The notes under the pieces were generated by a model. That model searched no databases, was not told the DNA's origin, and worked only from the letters and a program-made list of their open reading frames with translations. A DNA stretch of 64,000 nt from contig VGHE01000008.1 of NCBI GenBank assembly GCA_016868315.1, positions 89,888-153,887 on the forward strand. Direction: 5' to 3'. Below, one piece after another: positions 16,484 through 23,129 of the stretch; positions within the stretch are counted from its first letter, which is position 1; the number at the start of each line of letters is the position of its first letter. The position numbers were made by a program, and so were the translations under genes. Origin of the DNA: Betaproteobacteria bacterium (GTDB lineage: Bacteria > Bdellovibrionota_B > Oligoflexia > Silvanigrellales > Silvanigrellaceae).

Positions 16484-17452
16484 TCAGTTGCAAGAAGGCG
16501 GACGATTTGGTGTTCCTGGTGGAGGGCATCTGAATACACTCATTTCCTGACCGTCGTTGAATTCAAGGGTGAGGCCGCCATGAATCCAGATGTAATTGCT
16601 GAGGCGGTTGGGAGGATCGGCAGGATTCACGGGCGGCAAGACATCAAAGCGTGCGCGCGCCAGAAAGAGCGTGAGGGTCATGTAGTCTGGCACAAATGCA
16701 CCACTGTTCTCTCCATACAAACCCTGCAAAAACCGTTGCCGATCGGTAAAGTAGACACCACAAAGGACTGCACCCCAGTGATTCAACGCAGCACGGCTCA
16801 TTGAACCATCTGCTTGAACAATTCGCCGCGGTACCTGACGTTGAACAATCTCGCCGCGTGCAGTGTTGAGATACTTCACAACTGGCCGACTGCCCGCAGC
16901 ACATTCCACAGGACAAATGCTGTCGCGTCCGGCATCAGCATCCACTCCACCCCAGTTACCTATCGCGTTGCGCGGGTGGCGCGGCGCTTCCATCACGCCA
17001 CCCCGTCCTGTAGGCAGAGCCAATCCAGCGGGAATCTCCTCACAGGCATTCACAAATGCTTGCGAGGGTGCACCACCGGCGTCGAGCCCGAATCCAATCC
17101 CATCTGTTGGAACACCCGCAAGAACACCAGCCGCAGGATTGCAGGTGTAATTTGCAATATCTGCGCGGTCGCCAGCGTTGAACTGAAGAATACAGCCACG
17201 ACGCTGATTACCAATATTTACAGAAACTGAGGTTTGGAAAACCCGCCTCACATCGCGCAACAAATTCATCAGATCCGCGTTGGCGTCGGCTGCGACTTGT
17301 ATCGTTTTAGCCGTGGCCATGTAGTCGCGCAGGAGTGAGCCTGATGCCGTCATGAGAATGAGGGTCAGGCTCACGCCAATCATGAGCTCCACAAGTGTGA
17401 AACCGGCTTGCCGCTCTGCCTTCCTTTGCAATGAACGGGTCTCCATGCTCAT
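16484..17452 (-). CDS. PilW-like prepilin (type IV pilus minor pilin family)
   Basis: A 322-aa protein with a class III (prepilin) signal: QAGFTLVELMIGVS, cleaved between G and F, with Glu at +5, then a hydrophobic helix to about residue 40. The length and a body containing four or more cysteines (RRGCILQF, YTCNPAAG, NACEEIPAG, SICPVEC) fit PilW-type minor pilins. It starts 7 nt after the stop of the Hint-containing gene, so it is the third gene of the operon. It would be processed by prepilin peptidase and placed at the tip or base of a pilus or pseudopilus. Confidence 0.85.
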   Translation of the reverse strand: MSMETRSLQRKAERQAGFTLVELMIGVSLTLILMTASGSLLRDYMATAKTIQVAADANADLMNLLRDVRRVFQTSVSVNIGNQRRGCILQFNAGDRADIANYTCNPAAGVLAGVPTDGIGFGLDAGGAPSQAFVNACEEIPAGLALPTGRGGVMEAPRHPRNAIGNWGGVDADAGRDSICPVECAAGSRPVVKYLNTARGEIVQRQVPRRIVQADGSMSRAALNHWGAVLCGVYFTDRQRFLQGLYGENSGAFVPDYMTLTLFLARARFDVLPPVNPADPPNRLSNYIWIHGGLTLEFNDGQEMSVFRCPPPGTPNRPPSCN

Positions 17453-17459
17453 GCCCGCT

Positions 17460-19937
17460 TCACTTGCTCGAGGCTTTGAGTTGCAACATATTTTGTATAA
17501 CCAAATCGCCTGTGACTACTCCATCGGCCAGCACATAATGCAGTTCAGGGTAGTCGGCGGGACCCTCAAGTGCCAGATTGACCACCGTGCGCCCGAACTC
17601 TCCCAATTCGACAGATTGAACAGGGAGGAACGCCTTTTGAGCCCTCAAAATCTCCACACCTTTTTTCAGATCCTTGGCCTGCACCCAACCGCGCCGAGTC
17701 ATGAATGGGTGCGAGTCGGTCACCTTCACCACACGATCGCCCACACGCACATTCAGGAGATGCTTCAATTCTGGGCCGATGGTCAATTTGGTGATCTTTG
17801 CAGGGAGTTTGGTGACTGGATTGAAAACAAACTCGCCCATCTTGAGCTGTGTGATCAATCGATCCGAGCCATCCGCCATGCGAATCCGGGTAGACTCATC
17901 GAAGCAGCCATCATTGTTTCGGCACACAAAACCAGCTTGATCGCGCGTAATGAAGGTGTAAGAACATTGTCTGGGATCTTCGGCTTTTTTATACACGAAG
18001 TACGCACATGTTTGAGAGGTGTAGCGCTCTGCCTCCACGGGAGCACTCAACGCTTGTAAGCGATAAACCTTGAAGGTTCTCGTGGTTCCTGCATCAATAA
18101 CGGCACCAGTGTCAGGGTCTACAACCTTGTCAGTTGCCCCTCGAAGTTCCATGGCATACGGATTTCCAGCAACAAAACTTGCACCCGGTGCTTGCATCTC
18201 GGCGCTCTTGAAGTTTTCAAAGGCATGGCGCAAAGGGTGGTTCATTGGATCTGATGGTTGCAATGGCACAGCCGTTGGATTGACACGGTTAATCAACCGT
18301 ACCGGATTGTTTGCCCAGCGGTCACGCCCAGCAATAAACGCATCGTCGACTTCCAATGCAGCAATGGCCATTTGTAAGGTTGTTTCTGCGTGCCGACCCG
18401 CCACCTGCGGAGTGAATACCGCTGTTTTGTTGTTGAGACGCGCTTCTTCTGCTCGCACCAAGTCGCGCACGTTCTGCACCCACTGGTCACTACAACTCAC
18501 CTGGAGAGCACGGTCTGCATACTTCACATTGGGAGCCTCGGCTGCTGTAACAGGCTCAATAGTCACATCCTCACTCACACAGCGGGCGTTGAAGCGAGTG
18601 TTAAGATGCTCACGCGGCACATAAACTTTCGTGCAGAAATCCGCTCCGGCACCGGTTGACCCTGCTGAACCGCAACCGCTCTTGTAGTCGTTGTACCACT
18701 CTTGCGGCGACTTATTTGGGGTAGCCGGATTACGCTGCTTCAACCACTCAACTGGTTGTGATTTGCTCCCTGTTAAGTAGTACTTAAATTCTGGACCACC
18801 AACATTTTTCAACTTTGGCGTCACACCCACGAAGTATGAATTAGCCTGCTCAGCAGCTGTAAAGCGCTCGCGGCGCACAACTAATTGCTCGCTGATATAC
18901 TGCCCGCGTCCACCCGCATTCGGGCGCCATGAGTCAGCTGCACCCGAGACAGCAACATTGAGCCCAGCTCGACCGCCGCGAACATGGCGCTGGCTTGCCG
19001 GAATATTGGGGTCGTTTGACATATAATAAGGAATGAGACGCTCGCGCAGAGGAGCCAAAACCGCATAATCCTCTTCCTGCGCAAGCGCAGCGAGATTTGG
19101 AATTTCTCTTTCAAATTCATCCGCCAGATTCCCATCCGGCCGAGGTTCAAGTTCGGTTATAACGTAGCGCTGACCAACGCGACCGCCGCCACGCGCTGCA
19201 AATCCAATTGTTCCGCTTGCACTTTGTGCCACCGTTTGAGGGCGCATATAGAAGCAGGTATCTGCCGCGCCGTAACGTCCCAGGAGGCCGCGGTTTCCGT
19301 CCGAGGCTGCACCCAAATTCACTTTTGCTTCAAGAGAGGAAAAGTATGTTCCATTGGCTGCTCGTGGGCGCTGTGCTTTGATGAAAGCAAAATTTCGCTC
19401 AGTCACGAGTGCATCGCCGCTCCCCGAACGCTCTGGCGCAGGATAGCGAACGAATTTAACTTCAACCAAGACACGGTCGTTGACCACAACTCCGTTTGCA
19501 TCTTTGCGTGAGACTGGAACACAGACGTCAACAACTTCGCATCCCTGGCTCGGGCAAGTTCGCTTGAAGCGCCAAGATGCGTTCGCATTGGCGCAATCAA
19601 GAGCTGGCATAACAGTTGTGATGTTCAAACAACCGCCTCGCGTATACCTCGAGGAATTGACAGGATTGCCGTTGATTTGTGGCTCAATCACACGGCACCC
19701 AGCGGTGGAATTGAAGTACAGCGAACCGTTGGTAATCAGCTGTGTGACTGACTGCAGTGCCGTTTCATTCACTCGGCGGTCGACGTCTGCTGCTGTTTCC
19801 TGAGTCCGCGCTTTTCTGTTGTCGCGCAGCGACTGGATGACTGCACCGGAAGACAGTGCCAAGACCGAGGTGAACACAAGAATACTTGTGGTCGATGTCC
19901 CCCGCTGATTTCCCCATCGCAAACTGAATCCAAACAT
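17460..19937 (-). CDS. Large PilX/GspK-like pilin-associated protein ending in a Hint (hedgehog/intein) domain
   Basis: An 825-aa protein. The N-terminus (NQRGTSTTSILVFTSVLALS) has the basic-G-hydrophobic layout of a PilX/GspK-type prepilin but lacks Glu at +5, as GspK and some tip pilins do. A cysteine-rich extracellular region follows (about residues 80-670). The last 148 residues form a Hint fold: Cys678 opens it (GCFDESTRIRMADG), MGEFVFNP is the next strand, VTDSHPF is the TxxH block with Thr740 and His743, then RRGWVQAKDL and the C-terminal LADGVVTGD. The usual final His-Asn of inteins is replaced by Gly-Asp, so N-terminal acyl-shift chemistry is plausible but C-terminal Asn cyclisation is not. 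GAGGAG lies 7 nt before ATG 19937. Between two prepilin genes. Confidence 0.8.
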   Translation of the reverse strand: MFGFSLRWGNQRGTSTTSILVFTSVLALSSGAVIQSLRDNRKARTQETAADVDRRVNETALQSVTQLITNGSLYFNSTAGCRVIEPQINGNPVNSSRYTRGGCLNITTVMPALDCANANASWRFKRTCPSQGCEVVDVCVPVSRKDANGVVVNDRVLVEVKFVRYPAPERSGSGDALVTERNFAFIKAQRPRAANGTYFSSLEAKVNLGAASDGNRGLLGRYGAADTCFYMRPQTVAQSASGTIGFAARGGGRVGQRYVITELEPRPDGNLADEFEREIPNLAALAQEEDYAVLAPLRERLIPYYMSNDPNIPASQRHVRGGRAGLNVAVSGAADSWRPNAGGRGQYISEQLVVRRERFTAAEQANSYFVGVTPKLKNVGGPEFKYYLTGSKSQPVEWLKQRNPATPNKSPQEWYNDYKSGCGSAGSTGAGADFCTKVYVPREHLNTRFNARCVSEDVTIEPVTAAEAPNVKYADRALQVSCSDQWVQNVRDLVRAEEARLNNKTAVFTPQVAGRHAETTLQMAIAALEVDDAFIAGRDRWANNPVRLINRVNPTAVPLQPSDPMNHPLRHAFENFKSAEMQAPGASFVAGNPYAMELRGATDKVVDPDTGAVIDAGTTRTFKVYRLQALSAPVEAERYTSQTCAYFVYKKAEDPRQCSYTFITRDQAGFVCRNNDGCFDESTRIRMADGSDRLITQLKMGEFVFNPVTKLPAKITKLTIGPELKHLLNVRVGDRVVKVTDSHPFMTRRGWVQAKDLKKGVEILRAQKAFLPVQSVELGEFGRTVVNLALEGPADYPELHYVLADGVVTGDLVIQNMLQLKASSK

Positions 19938-19964: not shown

Positions 19965-21104
19965 TTAGCGAGCGACAATAGGCACAGGATCCGCACATTC
20001 CTCTCGGCATTGGTAGAGCCACAAAGGCGCAGCAATGCACACTGGACGAAGTCCATTTACGGGAATGGGAGGACGGTTGCTGCAATTCGGAACGGACACT
20101 CCAATTTTTTCACTTGAAAATTCCTTCATCGTTTTGAAAGCAAGTTGCTTCTTCGATGCCACAGAGCTCTCCGCATTGAGAACCGTATAAAGATTGAGCC
20201 GCACATTCAAAGTGCGATGCATTTCGTTGACTGCTTGATTGCAAGTTATGGCCTGTCCCGTGTTGGAGTTCCGGAACGTCGCTGTCGCTACCGCCAAACC
20301 CAACACCGATGGGTTGTCTATCACTTCGAGCTCACGTGCTGCAGCACCATTGACCACGTTGCCCGTACGTGAAAAAAGATTGCCTACAAATGCAAAGCAC
20401 ATGCGAAAACTCGATAAATTATTGAGGCTACTCACTCCCGCCCGGGGGGAGAGGTAATTGACACCGTCATTGGTGATGTCAGGGGTTAATGGTCGCTGAG
20501 GAGCTCGGTTGCCACCCTGCCCCGAACACGTATCAACCCAATTGCAAAACTCGCGCGCAGCACCCTGTGAGTCTTCGAGGACGCCCTCGTTGGCATTGCA
20601 AAAACTGGCGAGGTTGGCATTGGCATCCATAATTGCGCTCGGCCTAACTAAACGCGTGCTGAACGGCACAAGTGCCCCCCACGCAGCACCACCTTGGTTC
20701 AAGCGCCCCGTTAATGGATTCGCGGCCACCTCAGCATAATCCAAAGTGGAAAGCGCCATACGCATGTCTGCGCCTAGCGTGCGGTTGTTGAATGCCTGGT
20801 CGTTCGCCGGGGGGCCACCCGCAAGGACTGCATCATTACTTGCAAAGGCGAAGCGTAGCGCATCGCTGCAATCTTGCGCACCCGCATGAGCAACCCACTG
20901 CATTAACTTCGAGTAGTAAAGACGAAGTCTGCTGCTCGCAAACGTTTCAAAAAACAAATGAGGGCCAGCGGTATCGCGAGCCCGCGCGCTCACACGCGCC
21001 TTGTTGAGCACCATAAACGAACCGCCGAACACGATGATGAGGATGGTCATTCCGACCATCAACTCGATCAAAGAAAATCCAGATTGTTTTTTGAGGCCTC
21101 TCAT
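19965..21104 (-). CDS. Prepilin-type protein with N-terminal methylation motif
   Basis: A 379-aa protein beginning with a classical prepilin leader: KKQSGFSLIELMVGMT, with cleavage between Gly and Phe and Glu at +5, then a hydrophobic helix to about residue 30. The rest is extracellular, with several Cys (QDCSDAL, SFCNANEG, EFCNWVDTCSG, CAFVGN). GGTGAG precedes ATG 21104 by 5 nt. First gene of the three-gene prepilin operon, with a sigma-28-type promoter about 40 nt upstream. The PilW gene and the Hint gene follow. It is likely a minor pilin or pseudopilin of type IV pilus or type II secretion type. No ATPase or secretin gene is in the window. Confidence 0.85.
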   Translation of the reverse strand: MRGLKKQSGFSLIELMVGMTILIIVFGGSFMVLNKARVSARARDTAGPHLFFETFASSRLRLYYSKLMQWVAHAGAQDCSDALRFAFASNDAVLAGGPPANDQAFNNRTLGADMRMALSTLDYAEVAANPLTGRLNQGGAAWGALVPFSTRLVRPSAIMDANANLASFCNANEGVLEDSQGAAREFCNWVDTCSGQGGNRAPQRPLTPDITNDGVNYLSPRAGVSSLNNLSSFRMCFAFVGNLFSRTGNVVNGAAARELEVIDNPSVLGLAVATATFRNSNTGQAITCNQAVNEMHRTLNVRLNLYTVLNAESSVASKKQLAFKTMKEFSSEKIGVSVPNCSNRPPIPVNGLRPVCIAAPLWLYQCREECADPVPIVAR

Positions 21105-21151
21105 CAAGACTCACCAAACGCCAAGGGGCGGTCGGCAACCTCCAAAGTGCT

Positions 21152-21242: not shown

Positions 21243-21929
21243 CTAGAGCACCTTCTGCAAGTCCAACCAACGATCGAGGTAGGAAGCCTCTATCAGGTCG
21301 CCGTGCCCCACGTGAAAGCGCTCTACACCGCTCCTGCGCAACCTAGAAACCTCCCTTAAACACAAAGGCTTGTTGAGTGTTGCGGGGTGTTGAGCCGGCA
21401 TCCAAGCCGGAGGCAGGCCGAGCACCCCTCCCATGAGGAGGTCGCCTACGCATGCCGAGCCATCGGCCAGCACGACCGAGAGTGAGCTTTCGGTGTGGCC
21501 AGCTGTGCGCTCAACTTTCCCCTCAATTCCGAATTCGCTCAGCTCCAAAATCCCAGACACCGGTACGTCGATCTCCACGGCCGGAAAGGCTTGCGGCAAG
21601 ATATTGCCCAAAGTCGAGCGTAAAAACTTCGGAGCGAGTGCTTGCAATGTACCGCTCTCTTGCTTCCCAGATTTCAGAAAACTCCGCGCCTGCTCGGAGG
21701 CAATGACGGGAACCCCCCTTCTGCGCAACTCTGCCGCGCAGCCGCAATGATCAAAATGCACATGTGTAAGCACAACTGCGGCAAGCGATTCCGGCTTCAC
21801 GCCGCGCTCGATAAGCTGCCTCGAGAGCTGTGCAAAGTCACTTTGGCAACCAGTATCGACAAGAATATTTTTACGATCGCAGATGAGAAATGCGTTCGAC
21901 AAGGGCAGCGAGATTCTATGGACGCGCAT
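21243..21929 (-). CDS. Metallo-beta-lactamase fold hydrolase
   Basis: A 228-aa MBL-fold protein. The zinc motif is THVHFDHCGCA (HxHxDH), with the fourth histidine in TAGHTESS, an Asp in SACVGD and a final His in VGHGD. This set fits the general MBL hydrolase/glyoxalase-II-like group. It starts directly after the stop codon of the upstream gene (TGAATG), so the two are translated together. No lactonase- or glyoxalase-specific feature is obvious, so the substrate is unknown. Cytoplasmic: no signal peptide. Confidence 0.85.
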   Translation of the reverse strand: MRVHRISLPLSNAFLICDRKNILVDTGCQSDFAQLSRQLIERGVKPESLAAVVLTHVHFDHCGCAAELRRRGVPVIASEQARSFLKSGKQESGTLQALAPKFLRSTLGNILPQAFPAVEIDVPVSGILELSEFGIEGKVERTAGHTESSLSVVLADGSACVGDLLMGGVLGLPPAWMPAQHPATLNKPLCLREVSRLRRSGVERFHVGHGDLIEASYLDRWLDLQKVL

Positions 21930-23039
21930 TCAGTACCCCATCATGAAGCGCTCGAGTTCAAATCCACTCGGCTTGAGCTCGAAATTGCGAATGATTTGTT
22001 CGCGCACTGTTTCGCTTTTTTTATCTCTTAAAAAACTTTGATGTTGCAGAAGATAGGCCTGCATTTCGTTCGTCAAAATATAGGGATCACTCGTATCAAA
22101 TATTTTCGCTACGAAAAATTTGAGTCGCTCGAGGCTGTTCTGACTGTCTCCCAAGGTCTGACCAACCACCTTCCGAAAATCTTCTGATTGAAAATACAAA
22201 CCATGCAGAAACTCGTGCGATGGCACCCCGGTAAAAACACTTGGAGCGCTGAAACTCAGAAAGTACTTCCAGGGCTGAGCCGACATCCAGGACCAAAGCC
22301 TTTGCTCATCGGCCAAAGGCTCACCCGCTTGTAACAGCAGCTGAACAGCGATTTCGAAATCCTCTCTTCGTAAATTCGAGCCCTGCCAGAATCGGAGCAA
22401 AGGATTGGTGCGATGCTGCTCAATGGTGAGAATTTTATTCCCCTGTTCAACGTACGATACAACGCGCCCCAGCGCATAATTGAACTGCCTGTTCCCTTGA
22501 GAAACACAAAGCAAGGTTTCAGGAAGCTCTAGTACTGCACCGCAAACCAAATCAATTTCACTGCCCCGCGCTGCGACTGCTCCCTGCAAACCGATATCAA
22601 GCCACGAGTCAATTGGCTGCGCACCAGCGAGCTGCGCAATACTTGGCCATGAATGAGGCTTCTTTGCCTCTGAAGCCTGCAGCTTCTGCCACTTCTGTTC
22701 TTGCTGGGCTTCTTCGATACGCCGCAGGCGCTCACAAGAAAATTCAGAACCCAGGGAACAACTTTGATCCAAGAAGCGCTTGAATTCGGCCGGGGCTGAG
22801 GAGTTCCAGGCCCAACTCACCATGCTCCAATCCACACATTGCTCTGTGGAAGCGGAGGTGGTCTCCCGGCACTCCAGCGCCAGTTGCTCGAGCAGGGACT
22901 CCTGGTCTCGGACAAAGCTATCGGCTTTAAATCCCTTGGGATTTTTGGGCTTAAAGGGTGAAGCTTGAAGACCGACCACCACAGCAACAAGCGAGGCTGC
23001 ACAAAAAACCAGCAGTGCCAGCAGCCCCTTTTTTTTCAT
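21930..23039 (-). CDS. Membrane-anchored or exported protein of unknown function
   Basis: A 369-aa protein with basic residues then a hydrophobic segment (MKKKGLLALLVFCAASLVAV), so exported or anchored by its N-terminus. The part after it has several cysteines (ECRETT, EQCVDW, SCSLGS, FSCERL), which suggests disulphides in the periplasm, and long helical stretches. The C-terminal half is rich in Phe/Leu helices ending in SGFELERFMMGY. I chose ATG 23039; the upstream bases contain an AGGGG purine tract some 12 nt away, so the start is not certain. It shares an operon with the MBL hydrolase that immediately follows. No known domain recognised. Confidence 0.6.
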   Translation of the reverse strand: MKKKGLLALLVFCAASLVAVVVGLQASPFKPKNPKGFKADSFVRDQESLLEQLALECRETTSASTEQCVDWSMVSWAWNSSAPAEFKRFLDQSCSLGSEFSCERLRRIEEAQQEQKWQKLQASEAKKPHSWPSIAQLAGAQPIDSWLDIGLQGAVAARGSEIDLVCGAVLELPETLLCVSQGNRQFNYALGRVVSYVEQGNKILTIEQHRTNPLLRFWQGSNLRREDFEIAVQLLLQAGEPLADEQRLWSWMSAQPWKYFLSFSAPSVFTGVPSHEFLHGLYFQSEDFRKVVGQTLGDSQNSLERLKFFVAKIFDTSDPYILTNEMQAYLLQHQSFLRDKKSETVREQIIRNFELKPSGFELERFMMGY

Positions 23040-23129
23040 CCTGCAAATACCCCTTACCAACTCGTAAATTTCGCGGCTGTCCCCTCGACCCCCAGAACAC
23101 TATTGTGCCCCATTGAGAGACGTAAAGAC

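Follow-up and report, generated by a model that had tools for sequence, protein, structure and literature searches.

Hint domains are well known from inteins, hedgehog proteins and toxins. In inteins, splicing after the acyl shift needs a terminal His-Asn plus a nucleophile at position +1, and in hedgehog proteins the reaction ends in transfer to cholesterol. BIL domains of the A and B types were reportedly described by Amitai in 2003 and by Dassa in 2004. The B type lacks the C-terminal intein motif (PMC7765530), and a further type from Bdellovibrio bacteriovorus, a neighbouring predatory lineage, is presented as a new, C-type BIL with the domain PPS-1 in the citing description of Dori-Bachash 2009, as far as that description goes (PMC9185962). 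In Tetrahymena, the Hint domain of BIL2 joins its own N-terminal domain to lysine (PMC8616854). On the side of the pili, the tip complexes of minor pilins contain a capping subunit that lacks Glu5 (PMC10191384), and GspK and PilX are such Glu5-less capping subunits (PMC7541494). In the literature searched, we found no Hint domain on GspK/PilX minor pilins or on any other pilin-type carrier.

The window analysed here, a stretch of 64,000 nucleotides, carries on its minus strand a Hint-containing, minor-pilin-like gene of 825 codons for amino acids (17460..19937), with the ATG at 19937, the stop at 17460 and a GAGGAG ribosome-binding site before the ATG; an earlier note on this DNA had given the reading frame the same coordinates, which are correct. 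All parts of the protein are likewise encoded on the minus strand. Residues 1-13 (19899..19937; MFGFSLRWGNQRG) form a short leader of the class III prepilin type ending in Gly13, and predicted cleavage at the Gly13/Thr14 boundary (RWGNQRG/TSTTSILVFTSVLALSSG) would make Ser18, not Glu, mature residue 5. Residues 14-69 (19731..19898) are read as a helix like pilin alpha-1, first hydrophobic and then amphipathic, which appears as one helix of residues 16-69 in the full-length AlphaFold model, at low confidence there; because the quality of this model was too poor (pLDDT 40), it was left out of the fold search. The large, Cys-containing ectodomain (residues 70-639; 18021..19730) has no Pfam match and is 32-46% identical among relatives, and the conserved linker behind it (residues 640-677; 17907..18020), with Cys644, Cys658, Cys672 and an RNNDG motif ahead of the Hint, is 50-68% identical and leads to the predicted scissile bond Gly677-Cys678. 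The Hint domain itself (residues 678-811; 17505..17906) contains Cys678 as residue 1, Thr740/His743 as the TxxH motif, Asn787, His800 in block F and Gly810-Asp811 where an intein has His-Asn. The short tail (residues 812-825; 17463..17504; LVIQNMLQLKASSK) carries Gln815, which is found family-wide, and is without a toxin or sterol-recognition domain. Full-length relatives of the protein occur at three other places within the genus.

The earlier note had read the last 148 residues as a Hint domain, and sequence, profile and fold all bear this out; Cys678, Thr740/His743 and the LADGVVTGD end with Asp811 stand where it had placed them. The Pfam PT-HINT model scored 29.6 bits against the domain alone and 29.3 bits for the same domain in a whole-genome search (cut-off 27.7), and 25.9 bits, under the cut-off, against the whole protein. 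Among solved structures, a profile of 58 relatives matched 2lwy, a BIL domain of Clostridium, at 6e-13 and BIL2 of Tetrahymena at 9e-13. Residues 650-825 were modelled with AlphaFold from an alignment of four sequences; the model had a mean pLDDT of 59, about 60-79 in the core blocks and under 50 where the Hint ends. The comparison with Hint structures, which the earlier note had proposed for residues 670-825, returned the Hint fold for this model (Foldseek E 2.3e-8, Z 11). In the superpositions, Cys678 (model residue 29) coincides with hedgehog Cys258 and with the first residue of many inteins, and Asp811 (model residue 162), at the weak end of the model, coincides with the final residue of several inteins, e.g., gp41-1 residue 125 and PI-SceI residue 454. 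The motifs also align without gaps with those of two phage inteins (L108/L109; HTYIANGVVVHN vs HYVLADGVVTGD). With its fold, a Cys at residue 1 and TxxH in block B, the C-terminal domain belongs to the Hint superfamily.

The gene stands in a tight three-gene cassette on one strand, between two prepilin genes as the earlier note had described. The upstream neighbour (19965..21107, minus strand; KKQSGFSLIELMVG) is separated from it by 27 bp and the downstream one (16484..17452, minus strand; RQAGFTLVELMIG) by 7 bp; both keep Glu5, both lie above the Pfam N_methyl cut-off (1.7e-7 and 2.2e-6, respectively), and a search of related genomes found both at the same positions, in identical gene order, in the relatives L037 and L038. 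The label "PilX/GspK-like" given to the protein holds by signature and operon and fails by Pfam, as PilX_N has no match anywhere in the genome and T2SSK has no match to this protein. Judged from its class III-type leader, the lack of Glu5, the predicted alpha-1 helix and a cassette shared with Glu5 prepilins, the protein has the signature of a minor pilin in the GspK/PilX position. A metallo-beta-lactamase-fold protein and a 376-residue membrane-anchored protein without Pfam match are encoded upstream of the cassette (21243-23060, minus strand).

In the same genome, a type II secretion operon encodes pseudopilins of its own (G, J and K), and pilB-pilT-pilC plus a PilA-like gene lie elsewhere. 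Besides these, the cassette pair are the only other prepilins found in it by the N_methyl profile, which is not fully sensitive, in an assembly that is 95% complete. Since the remaining prepilins of the genome are type II pseudopilins and a PilA-like gene located apart, the minor pilins of its type IV pilus are most naturally sought in this cassette, and from signature and genome context together we infer that the Hint protein probably sits at the pilus tip. The absence of PilY1 (0/58 genomes) was considered as support for a tip role and set aside, since control genomes gave no match in the phylum search either. One relative genome (G048) has three full-length relatives (L038, L039 and L040), of which only L038 lies in a prepilin cassette and the other two stand alone.

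Across the phylum, the same C-terminal Hint was found in about 60 places in 27/58 genomes, copies that are related, were partly picked by their similarity to the window Hint and are not independent. Sequence comparison thus far makes it a recurrent module of the whole class Oligoflexia, not confined to the window protein. Its carriers fall into at least five N-terminal sets without detectable mutual similarity, all exported and mostly Glu5-less prepilins: the window type with a distantly related set (L049, L053, L075), a large set in two other families, L078/L085, lipoprotein-like proteins and short secreted proteins. By hand count, 41 Hint proteins have a prepilin-type leader, 40 of them without Glu5, which only L078 keeps. 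Lipoprotein-like N-termini occur in L054, L056, L082 and L083, with a clear lipobox in L082, so that pilin-type proteins are not the only carriers of the Hint; as the family also includes lipoproteins and simple secreted proteins, the job of the Hint is not pilus-specific. Three tandem Hint genes lie on one contig (L050, 8604-12852, minus strand), the third cut by the contig end, and three genomes (G028, G030, G033) hold 7-8 copies each.

In every family member the Hint is the last domain, with about 10-40 residues beyond the Asp, and no toxin or other domain follows it. The match to PT-HINT might recall a pretoxin module that releases a polymorphic toxin, but such a module would be followed by a toxin, and the cassette also has no immunity-like gene; together with a degenerate intein, we regard this explanation as highly improbable. 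As to the intein, the Hint is not inserted in a conserved host protein, and it has neither a C-extein nor an endonuclease. Viral contigs yielded only two terminase inteins, and the plasmids and phages searched gave nothing beyond inteins and distant HINT proteins of the toxin type, all at less than 35% identity.

The earlier note had made its reading depend on a conserved Cys and TxxH in homologs, and both are kept: in up to 62 copies, truncated ones left out, Cys1 is present in 59/60, the block B Thr in 60/62 and the block B His in 61/61, together with Gly-1 in 58/60, the block F His (His800) in 59/62, Gly-Asp in 59/61 and Gln815 in 60/61. The only copy without Cys1, L093, has lost His800 and Gly-Asp as well, and in L088, a relative of it with a truncated N-terminus, His800 and the Gly of Gly-Asp are gone; as each lost several, the catalytic sites appear to decay together. 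L076 and L062 are decaying copies too, with in-frame stops in the ectodomain sequence ahead of the Hint. It could be argued that the Hint fold is an inert scaffold, retained as a structural cap, since its activity here is only predicted and Gly-Asp for His-Asn drops half of the intein chemistry. However, Gly-1, Cys1 and TxxH hardly vary between unrelated carriers, and in L093 the sites have decayed jointly; both observations speak against such a cap, which we consider improbable.

The Hint with its pre-Hint linker is 58-75% identical among relatives, versus 32-46% for the ectodomain. When the ectodomain of L047 was used alone, in a search blind to the Hint, about 18 loci were found, all of them Hint-bearing genes or broken or tiny fragments, and with the ectodomain of the window protein 5/5 in the genus carried the Hint; for these two ectodomain sets, no intact gene without the Hint was found.

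At 27 loci of the other families, an uncharacterised family of about 280-340 residues with an N-terminal membrane segment adjoins the Hint gene or lies near it (e.g., L044:2042-2947, L060:2263-3096, L051:5194-6210 and 24 more); four of its members have no Pfam match, and it might serve the Hint protein as partner or acceptor. This family of roughly 300 residues was not found in the window cassette, and profiles gave no link from it to the window genes. The short secreted Hint proteins (L087, L090, L091, L092, L095, L096), of about 100 residues plus the Hint, share two more conserved neighbour families, of about 250 and 430-560 residues; the pair at L095 has no Pfam match.

Regarding the end of the domain, the C-terminal His-Asn followed by Cys, Ser or Thr that marks an intein is replaced here by Gly810-Asp811-Leu812, and no splicing is expected because of this replacement and the Leu at +1. 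The argument of the earlier note that a missing His-Asn speaks against splicing therefore stands, but the dipeptide is not merely missing: Gly-Asp is fixed (59/61) in its place and, being so conserved, is probably functional, though its role could be purely structural.

According to the above-described comparisons, the residues for an N-S acyl shift at Gly677-Cys678 are all present and conserved, and the domain should stop at the thioester, because His-Asn and the +1 nucleophile are replaced by Gly-Asp-Leu. We propose, at a probability of roughly 0.6, that the protein is a self-processing minor pilin in which the Hint forms a thioester without splicing, resolved by water or by an outside nucleophile. 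In this proposal, the minor pilin lacks Glu5, probably caps a type IV pilus as its tip subunit, and carries its own C-terminal autoprocessing domain. Export and leader cleavage would come first and the Hint would fold afterward; Cys678, aided by Thr740/His743, would then attack the carbonyl of Gly677, and through the N-S acyl shift the ectodomain would come to end in a thioester. With Gly-Asp for His-Asn and Leu at +1, splicing and Asn cyclisation would be impossible, and a nucleophile would resolve the thioester: with water, the tip protein would be trimmed and the 16 kDa Hint shed, while with an amine or hydroxyl of a partner pilin, the envelope or a target surface, the tip would become covalently attached. 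Asp811 may be the base that activates the nucleophile; fixed and at the position that the terminal Asn takes beside the active site of inteins, it is the best candidate. Cleavage at Gly677-Cys678 would leave the ectodomain with a new C-terminal end, as acid, ester or amide. The earlier note had supposed that the acyl shift could release the large domain; the reverse is to be expected, as the pilin helix is part of the N-terminal partner, and it is the 16 kDa Hint with its tail that would leave the large domain behind on the filament.

How the thioester would be resolved separates two explanations. In plain maturation, water resolves it and the Hint is a self-removing C-terminal pro-domain, a folding aid or a protection until export, with no attachment. 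This is compatible with all the sequence evidence, the tail is short and the protein ends there, and N-terminal cleavage has been reported for B-type BIL domains (PMC7765530). However, the invariant Asp811, His800 and Gln815 go beyond the acyl-shift residues and suggest control of a second step, though they maybe only hold the fold; we give plain maturation a real chance, if one somewhat short of even.

Covalent attachment, the second route of the proposal taken by itself, is a more tentative explanation. Here the thioester would pass to a neighbouring pilin, to the envelope or to a target surface through an amine or hydroxyl there, in the manner of hedgehog, BIL2 or thioester adhesins. The Gly-Cys-Phe start of the window Hint presumably resembles the hedgehog start, and the fold superposition matches the two by position. 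BIL2, a maker of isopeptide bonds, is among the closest solved relatives, and the internal thioester adhesins of Gram-positive bacteria also attach covalently (PMC4450167). Against this, the acceptor is only hypothetical, the window protein is without a sterol-recognition region, and the Gram-positive thioester domains use an unrelated, internal Cys-Gln chemistry. The stronger form, in which the tip is armed with a Hint-made C-terminal thioester, couples to a partner pilin or target surface, and Gly-Asp turns a splicing domain into a transfer domain, is a little more doubtful still.

If active, the self-processing minor pilin would bring a self-processing step, and perhaps covalent adhesion, to type IV filaments, and the comparison suggests that self-processing or covalent attachment completes the pilus-tip proteins of Oligoflexia. 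With Gly-Asp fixed class-wide and in many copies, the family would represent a natural Hint halting before splicing, useful for studying the choice between hydrolysis, transfer and splicing. Within the literature searched, there appears to be no report of Glu5-less prepilins in cassettes as carriers, of a fixed Gly-Asp or of a spread over the class in multiple copies.

Compared with GspK/PilX, the protein is alike in its class III-type leader without Glu5, its predicted long N-terminal helix and its cassette with Glu5 prepilins, but it is much larger, matches neither PilX_N nor T2SSK and carries a Hint. The Gram-positive thioester adhesins (SfbI and pilus-tip proteins) would be functional analogues should the tip be attached covalently through its thioester (PMC4450167), although their internal Cys-Gln thioester sits in a fold unrelated to Hint. 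Polymorphic toxins with PT-HINT differ in the toxin domain after the Hint, absent in the window family. The hedgehog Hog domain (1at0, 6tyy) shares the Gly-Cys-Phe start, TxxH and the place of a C-terminal autoprocessor on an exported protein; it has a sterol-recognition region, whereas the window protein has only 14 residues after Asp811, and its fold match (Z 9) is weaker than those to BIL domains and inteins. Tetrahymena BIL2 (6tmm, 6y75) is the second-best solved relative (E 9e-13), but it keeps an Asn at the C-terminal end (N143 in the entry titles) and has a polyubiquitin-like carrier, whereas the window Hint ends in Gly-Asp. By the tests made, the window Hint is therefore classed as neither an intein, an A-type BIL, a Hog domain nor a toxin HINT. 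The nearest likeness is to the A- and B-type BIL domains, in the Hint fold, Cys1, TxxH and variable exported carriers, with 2lwy as the best solved match (6e-13, Z 11); the window family differs in that its Hint is always the protein end and its carriers are mostly Glu5-less prepilins. The A type ends in His-Asn and the window family in a fixed Gly-Asp (59/61). The window Hint fits the B type loosely, having the motifs except the C-terminal one, in a comparison made with the description in PMC7765530 only, and it may be B-type-like; it may also be the same domain type as the Bdellovibrio C-type BIL.
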